From assembly GCF_907163125.1 (NCBI RefSeq), contig NZ_OU015319.1:2914001-2978000 (forward strand): a DNA stretch of 64,000 nucleotides, in the 5' to 3' direction. The notes under the pieces were generated by a model. It had not been told where the DNA came from. It saw nothing but the letters and a program-made list of their open reading frames with translations, and did not search any database. The position numbers and the translations under genes are program-made. How positions within the stretch are numbered: the first letter of the stretch is position 1; each line of letters opens with the position of its first letter. This document shows positions 40,789 through 48,131 of the stretch, in pieces. The stretch comes from Cloacibacterium caeni (GTDB lineage: Bacteria > Bacteroidota > Bacteroidia > Flavobacteriales > Weeksellaceae).

Positions 40789-40822
40789 AAAGTCCGAGAA
40801 TGAAAATTCTCGGACTTTTTTA
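40789..40822 (+). terminator. Intrinsic terminator after the M16 protease gene
   Basis: AGTCCGAGAAT (40791-40801) pairs perfectly with ATTCTCGGACT (40806-40816), 4-base loop, then a T-run. Confidence 0.93.
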
Positions 40823-40828
40823 TGTCAG

Positions 40829-40879
40829 AATATACGAACTTTTTCGTATTTATTGGTAGAAGTTTAAACTCCAAATTTG
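40829..40879 (+). promoter_or_regulatory. Inverted-repeat operator and weak -7 box upstream of the TPR kinase gene
   Basis: AATATACGA-N6-TCGTATTTA (40829-40852) has half-sites ATACGA/TCGTAT. Exactly 22 bp after TCGTAT is CAAATTTG (40872-40879), one mismatch from TAnnTTTG. The same operator, spacer length and distance occur at 43838-43888. The operator takes the place of the -33 element, as expected for an activator site. Confidence 0.75.
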
Positions 40880-40932
40880 TAAAAATCATTATTCATAAAT
40901 TTTTATAAATTTAGACTTAGAAAAGTCTCTGC

Positions 40933-42690
40933 ATGAAATCAATTTTATCTTTTGTATTCATTTTTACACTGAGTTTGACTTTTGGGCAAAAATCAAACCA
41001 TAAAAAAATAGATTCTATTAATAATCTTCCGTTTGAAGTAAGGTTAAAAGATGCCGCTATTTTGGACAAGGTTTATCTGAAAAATGCAGAAGAATCTGCA
41101 AAAATTCATTATGACTTAGGAGAAGCTAAATCTTACAGTAACCTTAGTTTGGTCTATTATTATCAAGGAAAATATGAGAAAGATTTGGCGTATTCTCTGA
41201 AAGCGATTCACATTTTCGAGAAATTAAATGACTTAGAGAATCTTTCTTTAGAATGGGGAGAATTAGGGTATAGAATGAAGAAAAGAAATCTAGAGAAAGC
41301 GATTCAGTACATGCAGAAATCTAAACAAATTGCAGAAAAGAATAACCTTCAGAAACCCTTATTGAGCATTTATAACAATTATGGTGTGCTCAAAGAAATG
41401 AAAGTAGAATATGACAGCGCACTTTTCTACTACGAAAAAGGTCTCGCCTTAAAACGAAAAATTAATGACCAAGTCGGCATTCCTTATAGTTTGAATAATA
41501 TTGCAGGGGTTTTTGTGCTCAGAAAACAATTTGACAAAGCGGAGGAAAACTATCAAAAAGCCCTTGAAATCAGAAAAAAAATAAATGATACGGTAGGAAT
41601 TGCAGAAAATTACTCTTACCTAGGAGATTTGCATTTGATGCAAAAAGACTTCAAAAAAGCGATTGGGTTTTATCAAAAATCAACAAAAATCACCGATAAA
41701 CACAAGTATTTAGGACTTTCGCAAGATTCTTATCGCAAGATTTCAGAATGTTTTGAAAATTTAGGAGAACATCAAAATGCTTTGCAGAATTTCAAGAAAT
41801 TTTCAGCACTCAAAGACAGCCTCATTAATCAGGAAACCAATTCTAAAATTGCCGAATTAGAGGTGAAATTTGATACCAATGAAAAAGAAAAACAATTACT
41901 TCAGAAGCAAGCCGAAGTAGAAACTTCTAGAATTAAATTTTCGGTGGCGATTGTATTTGCGATTTTAGCCTCTATTATTGGCTTTCTTTTTTATCGTCAA
42001 CAAAGATTGAAAAACAAGCAGCAACATCAGGAATTTGAATTGAAATCTGCAATGGCGCAAATCGAAAGTCAAAATAAGTTACAAGAACAGCGCTTGTCTA
42101 TTTCCAGAGATTTGCATGATAATATTGGTGCGCAATTAACCTTCATTATTTCGTCTTTAGAAAATACAAAATTTGGAATTCCGAATTTAGAAACTGCGGT
42201 AGAAAAGCGTTTAGACAAAATCAGTGACTTTACCAGAAATACGATTGTAGAACTTCGAGACACGATTTGGGCAATGAATAAAGCAGATTTTACGATGGAA
42301 GATTTGAGTTCTAGGATTTTCAATTTTGTGGAACAAGCGCAATCTGCCAATCAAAATATTTTGTTCAATTTTAGCATTGACGAAAATCTTAAAAACAAGA
42401 AATTTTCGTCTGTAGTAGGTGTAAATTTATACAGAACGATTCAGGAATCTGTGAATAATGCCATGAAATATGCTAATGCTCATCATATAGTCATCAATGC
42501 AGAAAAATTTCAGGAAGGTTTAAAAATTGAAATCAAAGACGATGGAAAAGGTTTTGACACCGAAAATGTAGATGTAGGAAACGGATTGCTCAATATGAAA
42601 AAACGAATGGAAGAAATCGGGGGAAATTTTTCCATCAATTCAGAAATCGGGAAAGGAACCAGCGTAAATGTAGAATTACTGAAATTTTAA
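40933..42690 (+). CDS. TPR sensor histidine kinase (HisKA_3 type)
   Basis: 585 residues. A signal peptide is followed by about six tetratricopeptide repeats in the periplasm (ALFYYEKGLALKRKI, AEENYQKALEIRKKI, AIGFYQKSTKITDKH). A coiled coil (KEKQLLQKQAEVETSR) leads to one membrane span (FSVAIVFAILASIIGFLFY, ~336-355). The cytoplasmic kinase has H395 in ISRDLHDNIGAQLTFI (HisKA_3) and a HATPase domain (NNAMKYANA, IKDDGKGFD, GLLNMKKRM). Its partner is the NarL-type regulator 160 bp downstream. The inverted repeat upstream of the gene suggests autoregulation. The TPR sensor probably binds a protein or peptide; the signal is unknown. Confidence 0.92.
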   Translation: MKSILSFVFIFTLSLTFGQKSNHKKIDSINNLPFEVRLKDAAILDKVYLKNAEESAKIHYDLGEAKSYSNLSLVYYYQGKYEKDLAYSLKAIHIFEKLNDLENLSLEWGELGYRMKKRNLEKAIQYMQKSKQIAEKNNLQKPLLSIYNNYGVLKEMKVEYDSALFYYEKGLALKRKINDQVGIPYSLNNIAGVFVLRKQFDKAEENYQKALEIRKKINDTVGIAENYSYLGDLHLMQKDFKKAIGFYQKSTKITDKHKYLGLSQDSYRKISECFENLGEHQNALQNFKKFSALKDSLINQETNSKIAELEVKFDTNEKEKQLLQKQAEVETSRIKFSVAIVFAILASIIGFLFYRQQRLKNKQQHQEFELKSAMAQIESQNKLQEQRLSISRDLHDNIGAQLTFIISSLENTKFGIPNLETAVEKRLDKISDFTRNTIVELRDTIWAMNKADFTMEDLSSRIFNFVEQAQSANQNILFNFSIDENLKNKKFSSVVGVNLYRTIQESVNNAMKYANAHHIVINAEKFQEGLKIEIKDDGKGFDTENVDVGNGLLNMKKRMEEIGGNFSINSEIGKGTSVNVELLKF

Positions 42691-42702
42691 AGAAATAGAA
42701 CT

Positions 42703-42850
42703 GTAGAGTTGTAGAGTGGGAGAATTGTAGAGTGGGAGAATTGGGGAATTGGAGATTGTTTGGGAAAAATTATGAAACATGAATCCCGAAACTCGAAACC
42801 CGCATCTCGTATCTCGAAACTCGCAACTTGCAACTAATAAATAATATACC
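42703..42850 (+). repeat. Simple tandem repeats between kinase and regulator genes
   Basis: GTAGAGTGGGAGAATT occurs twice in direct tandem (42711-42726 and 42727-42742), with a partial copy before (GTAGAGTT) and a degenerate one after. It is followed by several CTCGAAAC/CTCGTATCTC units. No terminator or promoter is clear, so the pair may still be co-transcribed. Confidence 0.65.
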
Positions 42851-43498
42851 ATGATAAAAATAGCGATAGTAGACGATAATCTTTTTTTGCAAAAAACGGT
42901 TCAAGAGAAACTGTCTTTTTTTGAAGATATAGAAATCAAATCAAAATCTCTGAACGGAAAAGAATTGCTCCAAAAATTAGAAAAAAACTCCAACTTAGAT
43001 TTGATTTTGATGGATATAGAAATGCCAGAAATGAACGGAGTAGAAGCTACTGCGGAAGTAAAAAAGCGTTATCCTCACATCAAAATTTTAATGCTAACGG
43101 TTTTTGATAATGATGAAAAAATTTTTAAATCCATCAAAGCTGGAGCCGATGGTTATTTGCTGAAGGAAATTAATCCTCAAGAATTATACAATTCCATCAA
43201 AGAAACGCTTTCTGGAGGCGCTGCAATGACGCCGTCTATCGCGCTGAAAACATTGAAATTGCTCAGAGAACCTCAGGTTTTCGAAACTGAAGAAGAAAAA
43301 GAAAAAATTACCCTCACCGCAAGAGAGATTCAGGTTTTGGAACAATTAAGCAAAGGATTGAAATATGATGCTATTGCAGAAAATCTCATCCTTTCTAAAG
43401 GAACTATTAGAAAACATGTAGAAAATATTTACGCTAAATTACAGGTTCATAATAAGTTAGAAGCAGTGCAGATTGCTAAGAAGAATAAATTAATTTAA
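42851..43498 (+). CDS. NarL/FixJ-type response regulator
   Basis: 215 residues. The receiver domain has VDDN, phospho-acceptor D55 (LILMDIEMPE), T in LMLTVFD and K in YLLKEINP. The C-terminal LuxR-type HTH (LTAREIQVLEQLSKGLKYDAIAENLILSKGTIRKHVENIYAKL) binds inverted-repeat DNA. It is the likely partner of the TPR kinase and the best candidate to bind the two ATACGA-N6-TCGTAT sites. The next gene starts 10 bp after its stop. Confidence 0.93.
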   Translation: MIKIAIVDDNLFLQKTVQEKLSFFEDIEIKSKSLNGKELLQKLEKNSNLDLILMDIEMPEMNGVEATAEVKKRYPHIKILMLTVFDNDEKIFKSIKAGADGYLLKEINPQELYNSIKETLSGGAAMTPSIALKTLKLLREPQVFETEEEKEKITLTAREIQVLEQLSKGLKYDAIAENLILSKGTIRKHVENIYAKLQVHNKLEAVQIAKKNKLI

Positions 43499-43508
43499 AT
43501 AGTATACC

Positions 43509-43799
43509 ATGAAAAAGTTTCTCTATTTGTTGTCATTCATACTTGTTACCACTATTTCTGCACAAAATTCTAAAGATGCAGTTTTGAATGTAAACGGTAA
43601 ACCAATTGCTACAAAATCTATTCAAAAAGTAGATACTACAAAAGTGAAAATCGGCAAAAAAGTTTCGAAGCAGAAATTAGATTCTACTTTTGATTTAACG
43701 ATGTATGCTGTGAAAGAAGTTTACCGCAGAAACCCTATTGTTACGCTTTTTTTCGCAATTATGGTTATGATAGGAATATTCAAGATTTTTAAAAATTAG
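43509..43799 (+). CDS. Small exported or membrane protein of unknown function
   Basis: 96 residues. A signal peptide (MKKFLYLLSFILVTTISAQ) precedes a lysine-rich central part (KVDTTKVKIGKKVSKQKL). A C-terminal membrane span (PIVTLFFAIMVMIGIFKIF, ~77-95) follows. The mature protein would be a short periplasmic stretch anchored at its C-terminus. It begins 10 bp after the response regulator and is presumably part of its operon. No family recognised; a role in tuning the TPR kinase is possible but unsupported. Confidence 0.7.
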   Translation: MKKFLYLLSFILVTTISAQNSKDAVLNVNGKPIATKSIQKVDTTKVKIGKKVSKQKLDSTFDLTMYAVKEVYRRNPIVTLFFAIMVMIGIFKIFKN

Positions 43800-43837
43800 G
43801 GAAAAGCCAAAGAGTAATATTAATTAAAATTCTGAAA

Positions 43838-43888
43838 AATATACGATTTTATTCGTATTTACTTGCTTATTTCTTCCGAGTATTTTTA
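43838..43888 (+). promoter_or_regulatory. Second copy of the inverted-repeat operator with weak -7 box
   Basis: AATATACGA-N6-TCGTATTTA (43838-43861) repeats both nine-base arms of the 40829 site exactly; only the six-base spacer differs. TATTTTTA (43881-43888), one mismatch from TAnnTTTG, starts exactly 22 bp after TCGTAT. It is placed to drive the secreted-protein run that starts at 43906. Confidence 0.75.
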
Positions 43889-43905: not shown

Positions 43906-44616
43906 ATGAGAAGAAAATTTATTTTATCGGCTGTTTCAGCATTGATGATTTCGGTATTTACTTTTGCGCAAGAAGGTAATAATTCTGTGAAATTTAACCT
44001 AGGAACTTCTTTTTCTAAACCAGGTGACGAACTGGCAAAAGTGGCGAGAGAAGGTAAAAGCATGCAACTCTCTGTAAGTGCAGAAGGTGCAAGATTTTTC
44101 AATTATAAAAAAGACTCTAAATTAGGTTTTAGAATTGCAGCAGTAGTAGGTTATGACAATACACACATTCTTTCTAGTGATGCGATTACTCAAATTAAGA
44201 CGTCTATTCCGAATATTAAAGGAAGAATTTATCCTTTGTGTTTTAAAGGTTCTGCTTTTGATTTTGCAGGATTAGTAACCAAAGAAAAAGATTTGGGAAT
44301 TGGTTTTTTGGATATTCCTGTGTATTTAATCTTAATTTCTACGGTGAATAGTTTACACTTTGATTATGGAGTTGGTTTTGGAAAACTCAAAGAATCCTCA
44401 AATATTTATGATGATAGTTTTGTAGAAACCACTACCAATAGAACCATGAATTATTTTGGTTGGGGATTTCAGCCTGTTATTTACAATTCTGAAAGTGAAA
44501 AATGGTCTGTAAATGCAATGTTTGATTTTGGGAAATTTAAATGGACGAACGGAAACGGAAACACATCGTCTTTTAAAATGAGTACAGTAGGATTTGGTGC
44601 TCAATATCATTTTTAA
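43906..44616 (+). CDS. Outer-membrane beta-barrel-like protein of unknown function
   Basis: 236 residues with a signal peptide (MRRKFILSAVSALMISVFTFAQ). Alternating strands (KFNLGTSF, LGFRIAAVVGY, LHFDYGVGFGKL, NYFGWGFQPVIYN, KWSVNAMFDFGKF) end in VGFGAQYHF. A C-terminal phenylalanine is typical of outer-membrane barrels, and 8-10 strands are likely. It is the first gene after the second operator and starts a run of four co-oriented genes with gaps of 12-28 bp. No named family recognised. Confidence 0.75.
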   Translation: MRRKFILSAVSALMISVFTFAQEGNNSVKFNLGTSFSKPGDELAKVAREGKSMQLSVSAEGARFFNYKKDSKLGFRIAAVVGYDNTHILSSDAITQIKTSIPNIKGRIYPLCFKGSAFDFAGLVTKEKDLGIGFLDIPVYLILISTVNSLHFDYGVGFGKLKESSNIYDDSFVETTTNRTMNYFGWGFQPVIYNSESEKWSVNAMFDFGKFKWTNGNGNTSSFKMSTVGFGAQYHF

Positions 44617-44628
44617 AATTTTAAAATC

Positions 44629-45162
44629 ATGATAAGAAGTCTGTTTTCTTTGATTCTTGGATTGGTTTTTACGCTAAATTTTGCCCAAGAAAAAACATTG
44701 AATGATATTTTAGCAGGACCTTGGAAAGGTTTTTCGAGTGAACAAATTCCAAACATGGGAGAAATAAATACTGGCGTTTATATGAAATTGGTTTTTAATG
44801 AAAAAATTGACGGAAGTAAAACCGAATATCCTTTTTATGGAACCAATCAAGTAGAATTTATTTACACGAATAATTTTGGAACCAAAACATATTTCGCAAC
44901 AGTAAATGTGAGTGGAGTTTTTAATCTAAAAGACAAAACACTCTATGTGAATGATGACAGTTTTGCTTCTTATGATACTTTACCAGACGGAATGATTTGG
45001 GAGTTGGGGAAATTTAAAGTCACGGTTTATAGAGACCAAGATCATACAGGATTTTTCTTGCTAAAAGGAGTGACCTTAGACAATCAAGGTTATGCAAAAT
45101 CTGGTAGTAAAGTGTATTACACCACAGATATGAATTATAATCCTTGGAAACAAAAATATTAA
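44629..45162 (+). CDS. Exported protein of unknown function (lipocalin-like appearance)
   Basis: 177 residues with a signal peptide (MIRSLFSLILGLVFTLNFAQ). The mature part begins LNDILAGPWKGFS and continues with strands (TYFATVNVSGVFNLKDKTLYVND, FKVTVYRDQDHTGFFLLKGVTLD). The G-x-W-x-G start and all-strand pattern resemble small lipocalin/calycin barrels, but this is a visual impression. It sits 12 bp after the barrel gene and 12 bp before the next, so it is operonic. Confidence 0.7.
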   Translation: MIRSLFSLILGLVFTLNFAQEKTLNDILAGPWKGFSSEQIPNMGEINTGVYMKLVFNEKIDGSKTEYPFYGTNQVEFIYTNNFGTKTYFATVNVSGVFNLKDKTLYVNDDSFASYDTLPDGMIWELGKFKVTVYRDQDHTGFFLLKGVTLDNQGYAKSGSKVYYTTDMNYNPWKQKY

Positions 45163-45174
45163 AACACCTATACA

Positions 45175-46074
45175 ATGAAAAAATATCTATTTATCACGCT
45201 ATTTTTTATAAGCATTGCTGTTTTTTCTCAAGAAAAATACAAGGCATCAGATTATTCACTGCCCAATAATGTAAAAAGCTATAATACATTTGTTTACAAG
45301 TACGATGTAGAATTAGGTAAATATTTCGTCATCGAAAAACACATCAGAATTTTTGAAAAAGGTTTGATAAAATATGATTATGTTTTGGATAATTATTTGG
45401 ATAGATTTACTCAAATCAAAAGATATACATATAATGCTCAAAATCAATTGATTTCTATAGAAACAGCGGATGATTATGAGAAGCCTCAATACTATCCTTA
45501 CATAGATTTTTTTTATGAAAATGGCAAATTGTCAAAAATTTCTGAAGTTTTAGGTAACAAAAGAATTTTTACAGATTTCAATTATGATAAAAAAGGAAGA
45601 ATTCTTAAGGAAAAAAGATATCAAGATGACAAATTAGTATTATCAACAGTAGATTACAATTATATTTCTGATAAAAATTATACAACCAAGAAAGTAGTTT
45701 TTATCAATGATGATTCTAAAAAAATTGTAGATGAAGTTTTTGAAAATAATTTGAAAATTTCAGAAGAAATAGACGACCCAGCTGCTAAAATTTCTTACAC
45801 TTATCAGTATGACAAAAACGGAAATGAAGTGATGAAAAGTGATATGGCAACAAGTTTTGATAGTCATTACGTTTACGGAAAAACAGGCGCCATTCTTAAA
45901 TCCAAAAAAACAGAGTATGATGATTTAGAATTTGACATTGTTAATTATTTTGAATTTTCGGAAATTACTTACGAAGATGGTTCTACAGAAGGAAGCAGAG
46001 TTTTTGATAAAGAATTTGCTAAATCTTTCAATATGAGTGTTTTGAGTTACGATGCGATAGATGATTTGAAATAA
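45175..46074 (+). CDS. Exported YD-like repeat protein, paralogue 1 of 3
   Basis: 299 residues with a signal peptide (MKKYLFITLFFISIAVFSQ). The mature part carries degenerate tyrosine-rich repeats: YTYNAQNQLISIET, FFYENGKLSKISEV, FNYDKKGRILKEKRY and YQYDKNGNEVMKSD. These resemble RHS/YD repeats (xxYDxxGxLxxxx) in short form. Such proteins form beta-rich shells or surface structures. It is the first of three related neighbours. There is no T9SS domain, so the final location is periplasmic or outer membrane. Function unknown. Confidence 0.72.
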   Translation: MKKYLFITLFFISIAVFSQEKYKASDYSLPNNVKSYNTFVYKYDVELGKYFVIEKHIRIFEKGLIKYDYVLDNYLDRFTQIKRYTYNAQNQLISIETADDYEKPQYYPYIDFFYENGKLSKISEVLGNKRIFTDFNYDKKGRILKEKRYQDDKLVLSTVDYNYISDKNYTTKKVVFINDDSKKIVDEVFENNLKISEEIDDPAAKISYTYQYDKNGNEVMKSDMATSFDSHYVYGKTGAILKSKKTEYDDLEFDIVNYFEFSEITYEDGSTEGSRVFDKEFAKSFNMSVLSYDAIDDLK

Positions 46075-46102
46075 TTTATTATATTTGGAATAAACATATA
46101 AC

Positions 46103-47323
46103 ATGATGAAAAAAATAATTCAACTTTTAGTGCTTTTGTTCGTGCAATTTTCTTTTGCACAACAAGATAATGTGGTGAAATATTTAGCAGAAAATTGGGG
46201 TGTAAATAAAGATGTAGCAAAAATAGAAGAAGTGAATTATTCTGTAGGCTTTACTTCTGGGAAATTTGAACCAAGAGAAACCAAAATTTATACCTTCAAA
46301 AACGGAAAAGTAATTTCTATAGAAACACAATATTCTAAAGATAAAGTCATCGAAACTTTCGAATACAATGCGAAAGGAAAGCCTGTAAGATTTTCATATA
46401 TTTCTACAGGAACAGACAAAGCCAGTGAAAACATTTCTACATTTAGCTATGACAAAAACGGAAAACTTATAGAAATTAAACCTTCTAATCCTAGATTTCA
46501 TTGGCAATATAAATATCAATATAAATCTGATGGTACATTGGCTTCCGTAGAAATTTTTGACAATGGAAAATTGGATTCTACATGGAACTTCACCTCTTAT
46601 CAAGACGAAAAAAATTATCAATATATTGATGAAAATTACTCGGCTAATGATGGTAAAAAAGTTTTTGAATTAAAAGAAAGTTTGGTAAACGGACAAAGAC
46701 CTATGAGAAAAGAAGCTTGGTTAGAAGGAAAAGATCCAAACGGAAATGTTTTTAAAATCAGAGAAAACAACGCGGTTTTCGGGAAATATTATTTTTTTAG
46801 AAAATTGACTTATACTAACGGAGAAACCACTGGAAGTACAGAATATAATCCCTATTTCACAGAAGGGATTAATGGAGATATTTTTCAACTTCTAGAAAAT
46901 AAAAACCCTAAATCTACCTATAAAATCAGATTAGGCGAAGACGGAAAATTTAAAATGGAGAATCAAGCAAATCAGCCTATTCCAGATTTGAGCAAAGGTT
47001 TTATCAGTCCCAACAAAACAGATTTCATTTATTTTGACCCTAATAATGGAGAAGTTGCATTGGTAGAAGATATGAAACCTAGTGAAGAGTTCGTGGCGAT
47101 GAAACCGTATAATGTACCTTCTAAAAGATATATTGTCATCAATAATGATTATCAATTCATCATTTTCGATAACGGAAAACAAATCGATACTTCTAGTATG
47201 AAATTGGCTCAAGATATGGGAAATTTAGTCATTCAAGAAAATGGTGTGCCGAAATATTTTGTTCCGAATTTGGACAAACTTACTTTCTTGAAGTTTTATC
47301 CCCTTTATATTTTGGCGCTTTAA
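46103..47323 (+). CDS. Exported YD-like repeat protein, paralogue 2 of 3
   Basis: 406 residues; the start is ATGATG at 46103/46106, followed by a signal peptide (KKIIQLLVLLFVQFSFAQ). YD-like units are FEYNAKGKPVRFSYIS, FSYDKNGKLIEIK and YQYKSDGTLASVEIFDNGKL. After about residue 270 the sequence changes to KFKMENQANQPIPDLSKGF and KRYIVINNDYQFIIFDNGKQIDTSSM, a beta-rich C-terminal domain not present in paralogue 1. Gap to the previous gene 28 bp, to the next 13 bp. Function unknown. Confidence 0.72.
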   Translation: MMKKIIQLLVLLFVQFSFAQQDNVVKYLAENWGVNKDVAKIEEVNYSVGFTSGKFEPRETKIYTFKNGKVISIETQYSKDKVIETFEYNAKGKPVRFSYISTGTDKASENISTFSYDKNGKLIEIKPSNPRFHWQYKYQYKSDGTLASVEIFDNGKLDSTWNFTSYQDEKNYQYIDENYSANDGKKVFELKESLVNGQRPMRKEAWLEGKDPNGNVFKIRENNAVFGKYYFFRKLTYTNGETTGSTEYNPYFTEGINGDIFQLLENKNPKSTYKIRLGEDGKFKMENQANQPIPDLSKGFISPNKTDFIYFDPNNGEVALVEDMKPSEEFVAMKPYNVPSKRYIVINNDYQFIIFDNGKQIDTSSMKLAQDMGNLVIQENGVPKYFVPNLDKLTFLKFYPLYILAL

Positions 47324-47336
47324 AAATTTTGAAAAC

Positions 47337-48131
47337 ATGAAACAAATAACATTTTTCACCATAATTATTTCCATTTTCGGATTTCCTCAAGAAAAACTTA
47401 CGACTCAAGATTTTGGCTTGCATAAAAATACAGAAACTGTGATTTCTAAACAATATTGGGAAGATGACCAATCGAATATAGTTTTTACAGAAGAATTGAA
47501 ATTCTACAATACATTTTTAGAAGAGAAAAAAACCAAAGATGGAGATTATGTTACTGTGAAAAAATATTACTACAATATTGATAATTTATTGGTGAAAATA
47601 GAAACAGAGCATGTTCATTCTGGCGAGAAGGAAAAAGAGGTTTTTCACTATAAAAATCTTCAGTTGCAGAATTCTGAACTTTGGATGCATGGTAAAATGT
47701 TTTCTAAAACTCAATATTTCTTTGACAAAAATAATAGATTGACAAAAGAAATAGAAAAAGATGCTAAAAATAAAGTGACCAGAATAGTATAGTACAAAAA
47801 CTACAAAAATGACGATTTTTTCACCAAACTGATAAAGGATTTTCAAAATGATAAAGTGGAAGAAACCGCCGAAGAAATTTATGAAAATAAATTATTGGTA
47901 GAAGCCAATTATGAAATGTACAACCTGAAAACCAATGTTAAAAATACTTATAATAAAGAAGGTTGGATTGTAAAAGAAGTGTTCAGCAATAGTGAAGTGG
48001 TAGAAAATACCTTTACTTATGAAGTAGATGAGAAGGGAAATCCTATAAAAGTTACCAAAACCAATTCCCAGAATCAAGGAAATTATGTTTTGGTAATCAA
48101 TAATACATATTCTACTTTTCCTACGAATTAA
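47337..48131 (+). pseudogene. Exported YD-like repeat protein, paralogue 3 of 3, interrupted by TAG
   Basis: The frame from ATG 47337 (MKQITFFTIIISIFGFP) runs to TAG at 47790-47792, then continues in the same frame as YKNYKNDDFFTKLIKDF to the stop at 48131. Both halves are typical of the family: YYYNIDNLLVKIET, YFFDKNNRLTKEIE before the stop; YNKEGWIVKEVF, YEVDEKGNPIKVTKTN after it. A single base change (for example TAC or TGG to TAG) explains the interruption. The 3' end overlaps the convergent DUF3109 gene by 11 bp. Either a recent null allele or a sequencing error. Confidence 0.75.

Follow-up and report, generated by a model that had tools for sequence, protein, structure and literature searches.

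Organization of the locus

We analyzed a 64,000-nucleotide stretch of the Cloacibacterium caeni genome (contig NZ_OU015319.1, positions 2,914,001 to 2,978,000), hereafter called the window, in which two copies of one inverted repeat flank the genes of a two-component system. This system consists of a sensor histidine kinase with tetratricopeptide repeats (TPR) and a NarL/FixJ-type response regulator, and the second repeat precedes a run of genes for secreted proteins (43906-48131). The comparisons reported below make it very probable, in our view, that both repeats are operators of the regulator encoded between them, which is predicted to bind a 7-2-7 dyad near position -42 and to activate its own operon and that of the secreted proteins. 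The host genome has 2.98 Mb, and the locus has an M16-peptidase-like gene on one side and a convergent gene on the other. The features of the locus are as follows, in window coordinates.

40789-40822, + strand: terminator-like hairpin with a T run, after the M16-peptidase-like gene and just before operator 1 (AAAGTCCGAGAAT gaaa ATTCTCGGACTTTTTT, read by eye)
40832-40849, + strand: operator 1, ATACGA-N6-TCGTAT, whose inner 16 bases form the 7-2-7 inverted repeat TACGAAC-TT-TTTCGTA
40872-40879, + strand: -7-like box CAAATTTG, 22 bp after operator 1
40933-42690, + strand: TPR sensor histidine kinase (TPR, HisKA_3 and HATPase_c domains)
42851-43498, + strand: NarL/FixJ-type response regulator (Response_reg and GerE domains), recognition helix TIRKHVENI
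43509-43799, + strand: open reading frame (ORF) of 96 amino acids, signal-peptide-like at its start and hydrophobic in a C-terminal stretch, located between the regulator gene and operator 2
43841-43858, + strand: operator 2, ATACGA-N6-TCGTAT (TACGATT-TT-ATTCGTA)
43881-43888, + strand: -7-like box TATTTTTA, 22 bp after operator 2
43906-44616, + strand: predicted outer-membrane beta-barrel, gene 1 of the putative target operon (structure model and weak OmpX/Ail/OmpA-type matches)
44629-45162, + strand: secreted protein of 177 amino acids, called lipocalin-like in an earlier note on this DNA; absent from the related locus L036
45175-46074, + strand: YD/RHS-like secreted protein 1 (YD1)
46103-47323, + strand: YD-like secreted protein 2 (YD2; no significant family match)
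47337-48131, + strand: YD-like gene 3 (YD3), with an in-frame TAG at 47790-47792

Two putative operators with identical arms at a fixed distance from the -7 box

The two sites read AATATACGA-ACTTTT-TCGTATTTA (40829-40852) and AATATACGA-TTTTAT-TCGTATTTA (43838-43861), with identical arms and different spacers. The distance from TCGTAT to a -7-like box is exactly 22 bases at both sites, and each box has one mismatch to TAnnTTTG, the -7 element reported for Bacteroidota promoters, which less strictly also carry TTTG near -33 (PMC7366714). Within both repeats lie two inverted 7-mers that start with TAC and are separated by a 2-bp gap. The earlier note had described the repeats correctly to the base, including the imperfect box and its distance, and its statement that there is no other full copy extends to the whole genome: exact ATACGA-N6-TCGTAT occurs only twice in 2.98 Mb, once before the kinase and regulator genes and once before the barrel/YD operon. 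The expected number of such copies in 2.98 Mb is 0.06 under a first-order Markov model trained on the window, and the same model gives 0.00014 for two 9-base arms in both orientations. ATACGA/TCGTAT is also the sole 6+6 palindrome common to the two upstream regions, and only 6 of 20,000 random pairs of equal lengths shared any such palindrome. Domain matches confirmed that the kinase and a NarL-type regulator are encoded between the sites, as had been claimed, along with the 96-codon ORF.

The putative operator and its spacing are conserved in relatives

We fetched 80 named loci by similarity to the window regulator and defined a close set, comprising the window and the 31 nearest loci (regulators 51-99% identical), and a distant set; the split, at L066 (51% identity), was chosen post hoc. 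When every 5-base word was counted together with its inverted partner in intergenic DNA, at spacers of 2-14, ATACG-N8-CGTAT was the commonest palindrome, found in 21 of the 32 close loci, and the next two (15 and 10 loci) were overlapping extensions of it. The top palindrome reached at most 4-6 loci in five shuffles, which preserve base composition and not dinucleotides. ATACG-N8-CGTAT was present in 6 of the 49 more distant loci. A later set of 12 loci was fetched once the motif had been fixed; it comprised loci with regulators 58-75% identical, drawn from 395 genomes of the class, together with one member of the genus, and excluded L173, which duplicates L055. Seven of the 12 loci had a site in promoter position; leaving out the member of the genus, the count was 6 of 11.

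The distance to the -7 box was analyzed for all sites in promoter position, which were oriented by the downstream gene and cleared of near-identical sequences, leaving 39 rows from 37 places. Allowing one mismatch, TAnnTTTG stood at offset 22 in 26 of the 39 rows (10 of them exact) and at offsets 21-23 in 30, compared with a mean of 0.40 at each of 57 other offsets; outside Cloacibacterium, offset 22 was occupied in 22 of 35 rows. An operator fixed beside the upstream promoter element in this way has the position expected at class II-type activator promoters, where the bound regulator would activate transcription. Behind the 26 offset-22 sites we found 10 kinase or regulator genes, 14 genes for proteins that begin like a signal peptide (judged by eye) and 2 other ORFs; among the 10, two sites precede a kinase gene, two a small membrane ORF in front of the kinase gene and six a regulator gene. 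A Pfam scan detected the type IX secretion tail PF18962 in 4 of 10 proteins from site-bearing loci. In a scan of 395 phylum genomes, the exact composite of dyad, 22 bp and TAnnTTTG occurred at 27 places, spread over 14 genomes, and its backwards control at none.

A barrel gene lies beside the regulator gene in eight loci, namely the window, L036, L037, L038, L180 and the Flavobacteriaceae loci L039, L040 (where the gene was identified by reading the frame) and L168. In every one of them the two sites are present with spacing 22, the box on the kinase side is missing its first T, and the box on the barrel side carries A in place of the last G. That the same deviations are kept suggests that these promoters rely on an activator. 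A search of 385 genomes of the class gave barrel homologues in only two, the other of which (G063) likewise carries this locus and its pair of sites. Regulators 99% and 93% identical occur in C. normanense and C. rupense. Among the seven Cloacibacterium genomes, the regulator (93-100% identical), both sites and the barrel gene are all present in G000, G002, G003, G004 and G005, and none of the three was found in G001 and G006.

The regulator and its recognition helix

The regulator matches Response_reg with 85.5 bits (cut-off 30.2) and GerE with 58.9 bits (cut-off 23.5), which places it in the NarL/FixJ (LuxR-type) family. The receiver residues D9, D55, T83 and K105, including those for phosphorylation, are invariant across 18 aligned regulators. 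Recognition helices could be parsed in 84 of 93 loci (L050, L068, L070, L090, L099, L102, L103, L107 and L111 were left out; L050, read separately, has a site and the helix TIRKHVENI). Loci with the helix T[VI]R[KR]H[VIL]E[NH] had a site in 30 of 44 cases, those with other parsed helices in 3 of 40 (Fisher's test, 6e-9, relatedness ignored), and the three site-bearing loci among the latter read KHTEN or KHREN. L084, L088 and L096, for which the script picked the wrong stretch, were kept among the loci with other helices. Over distant loci, comparison of inner operator bases with helix residues gave no clean rule, and a clear contrast was seen at the genus level only.

That contrast involves a second regulator, 38-41% identical and with the helix TVRTHVNNI, which is encoded in G001, G002, G003, G004 and G006. 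Sites of the form ATACGTA...CGTATTG with 22-bp spacing are found in these same five genomes, matching the distribution of the second regulator, and no site of this type was found in G005; this operator class was defined post hoc, after the data had been seen. The outer ATACG...CGTAT core and its spacing are thus not private to the window system, and the paralogous NarL-type regulator appears to use ATACGTAA...CGTAT, from which it follows that the inner bases would matter.

Sites of the second class, ATACGTAA...CGTATTG with 22-bp spacing, lie before a DUF21/TlyC-like gene (named by eye) in L119, L156, L160 and L193. The one at C1:1335221-1335268 of G000 (L119) has a broken left arm, and G000 lacks the paralogous regulator.

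A broader proposition, for which we see as much reason to doubt as to believe, would extend this to a wiring code across Bacteroidota. The outer ATACG...CGTAT, 22 bp before the -7 box, would mark promoters activated by NarL-type regulators, and the inner bases, read by two or three helix residues, would separate sister systems in one genome, pairing RKHVEN with ATACGA... and RTHVNN with ATACGTAA.... Operators in Cloacibacterium would then come and go with their regulator, including the decayed site of G000, where the paralog is absent.

Proposed mechanism and alternative explanations

We infer the following mechanism from the arrangement of the sites. The TPR kinase would receive a signal from the envelope and phosphorylate the regulator, a dimer of which would bind the NarL-like 7-2-7 inverted repeat TACGNNN-N2-NNNCGTA. 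The downstream edge of the dyad would abut the -33 region and lies 22 bp from an imperfect -7 box of the sigma-ABfr type; with this box starting near -11, the centre of the dyad would lie near -42. From there, the regulator would contact RNA polymerase and activate two promoters, that of its own kinase-regulator operon, generating positive feedback, and that of the adjacent operon for the beta-barrel and the secreted YD-like proteins. The earlier note had predicted an autoregulated two-component system with its target operon, and at the level of sequence comparison this is supported by both sites in all barrel loci, the palindrome enrichment, the 22-bp spacing and the co-occurrence within the genus.

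Several observations weigh against this interpretation. In the window, the pattern with two mismatches is at chance level (3 found, shuffle mean 1.98), and with one mismatch it occurs at 5 places in the genome versus 12 for the backwards control. Five of the 12 later-set loci lack a site in promoter position, and 14 of the 44 loci with a matching helix lack an exact one. The helix association is confounded with relatedness, as the loci were collected by similarity to the window regulator. The -7 box does not fit offset 22 in L178/L179 and fits at 23 in L171/L177. Finally, the outer core and spacing are also found at sites accompanying another regulator, and in G003 a copy of ATACGA-N6-TCGTAT adjoins the paralogous system (L163), with a poor -7 box. 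We rejected the motif as a genome-wide excess, its relaxed counts being at or below those of the controls; since the loosened counts are ordinary, the argument must rest on exactness, location and conservation rather than abundance.

The regulator could bind both sites and act as a repressor: bound at the border of the -33 region, its dimer would block RNA polymerase until released by phosphorylation, which would result in negative autoregulation. Each site lies directly beside the promoter core, regulators bound near -35 can act as repressors, and position alone is compatible with this model. We nevertheless consider it unlikely, as the -7 boxes deviate identically in all eight barrel loci, as they would in promoters that need help, and as NarL is reported to activate yeaR and ogt from a 7-2-7 site abutting the -35 element (PMC7419079). 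FimR, the nearest studied regulator, is likewise reported as an activator (PMC1974823). Given the comparable place of the NarL sites, the regulator most likely activates both operons, a preference over repression that we derive from position.

It is more improbable still that a DNA-binding protein other than the adjacent regulator reads the sites. Such a protein could account for equally spaced ATACG dyads at unlinked genes elsewhere, as at the 27 composite places, many of which have no regulator gene in the 3-kb locus, and for the dyad in Cloacibacterium genomes without this system. Within the genus, however, the ATACGA-type pair occurs only with this regulator and the ATACGTA type with the TVRTHVNNI paralog, and in many loci the sites adjoin regulator genes, 10 of the 26 good sites preceding kinase or regulator genes. 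Chance, a non-regulatory repeat, or an RNA hairpin or terminator is scarcely credible: site 1 does follow a terminator-like hairpin and loosened patterns occur in the genome no more often than by chance, but the sites are not G+C-rich and have no T run behind them, two exact copies make no repeat family, and the expectation of 0.06 copies per genome, the conservation and the fixed spacing all speak against it.

We did not retain a third target in the same genome. The three other places with one mismatch lack the -7 spacing or are intragenic, and the best composite place (C1:979607 of G000) was not counted because it is conserved in G001, which lacks the window regulator.

If activation by the regulator is correct, the fixed-spacing motif allows the targets of TPR-kinase systems to be predicted in Bacteroidota, whose NarL-type operators are little described. 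Secreted proteins of unknown function (barrel and YD-like proteins, some of which have type IX sorting tails) would gain a candidate regulator, and the two-paralog contrast in Cloacibacterium makes the specificity of helix for base directly testable.

Relation to known systems

The closest studied system is FimS/FimR of Porphyromonas gingivalis, which likewise combines a periplasmic TPR sensor kinase with a DNA-binding regulator that activates genes for surface structures. FimS is the best NCBIfam match of the window kinase, with 99.1 bits, below the NF053520 equivalog cut-off of 600. FimS is described as having eight TPR motifs and an unknown signal, with protein or other ligands suggested (PMC5706477, PMC11053733), and FimR as binding the mfa1 promoter directly (PMC1974823); the consulted parts of this literature give no FimR consensus for comparison with the window operator. 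Unlike FimS/FimR, the window system would target a barrel and YD-like proteins, not fimbriae. TACG-N8-CGTA was absent from all 10 FimS-like loci of other genomes (1.5-kb flanks; P. gingivalis itself lies outside the sample), and we therefore dropped an operator common to FimS-like loci, as judged from these short flanks.

Escherichia coli NarL belongs to the same family as the window regulator, which matches it with 126.9 bits in NCBIfam, below the NF007935 equivalog cut-off of 250, and with 95.7 bits in the structure 1a04 of the PDB. The heptamer of the window is TACGNNN, and the G at its fourth base departs from the NarL consensus TACYYMT. At yeaR-yoaG and ogt, NarL sites are described as inverted heptamers starting with TAC, with a 2-bp gap, against the upstream promoter element (PMC7419079), as in the window. 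The window promoters differ in being of the Bacteroidota type, with TAnnTTTG at -7, and the window regulator adjoins its presumed targets. VraR (5hev) gives a full-length match of 115.5 bits; for VraR and other NarL/FixJ-family regulators of solved structure, the comparison was made at the protein level, and organisms, kinases and targets differ. The component parts of the window system are of known kinds, and we found no description of the operator form, of the locked spacing in this regulator family or of the two-paralog contrast in the consulted parts of the open-licence literature.

Target proteins and additional features of the loci

The barrel model has a predicted local distance difference test (pLDDT) score of 69.9 and weakly resembles eight-stranded barrels of the OmpX/Ail/OmpA type (template modeling (TM) scores of 0.32-0.40 for the first six matches). 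The YD1 model (pLDDT 80.7) shows weak likeness to Rhs/teneurin shells in Foldseek (TM 0.14-0.33) and also resembles the Bacteroides porin-like protein 4ghb. YD1 scores 27.0 bits with PF05593 (cut-off 22) and 19.5 with TIGR01643 (cut-off 15.8), and no single stretch passes alone; YD2 and YD3 had no repeat-family match in Pfam or NCBIfam. An envelope or surface role of these proteins is only a suggestion, based on the models. The operon content was as the earlier note described, except that YD3 carries the in-frame stop and that the 177-amino-acid protein it called lipocalin-like has no Pfam or NCBIfam family match. YD3 is open in L036, L037, L038 and L180, encoding 263-264 amino acids.

The 96-amino-acid ORF behind the regulator gene was found in three genus relatives; in G002 (L180) there is none between the regulator gene and site 2. 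In many Flavobacteriaceae loci, a small ORF (∼83-107 amino acids) with a hydrophobic start stands before the kinase gene instead (L039, L040, L041, L042, L043, L044, L048, L050 and L168), and the ORF of 96-102 amino acids behind the regulator gene in Cloacibacterium looks unrelated to it. The kinase and regulator genes of the window are separated by ∼160 bp of short repetitive sequence (42691-42850; tgtagagtgggagaatt..., ctcgaaactcgcaac...); this gap is ∼124 bp in L036, and in L037, L038 and L180 the two genes adjoin or overlap.

Fifteen loci with ANI or SNI helices contained no convincing palindrome, and TTACC-N7 was present in 5 of 5 loci with an HVKK helix, four or five of them from Chitinophaga relatives. 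The genomes G090 and G295, which belong to a single genus of the order, have six and seven exact composite promoters at unrelated genes; their dyads are ATACGTAT-AA-ATACGTAT-like (L131, L133, L142, L143 and L146-L154), pointing to a larger regulon with the same geometry. In L178/L179 (7664-7941), an ORF of 74 amino acids whose match to the regulator is confined to the DNA-binding end directly follows the regulator gene, with an operator-like site between them, and its product is a possible competitor for the operator; a similar ORF of 83 amino acids adjoins a site in L144. Tandem TPR-kinase or kinase/regulator genes stand beside genes for secreted proteins in L040, L042-L044, L047 and L051, as if such systems multiply along with their targets.

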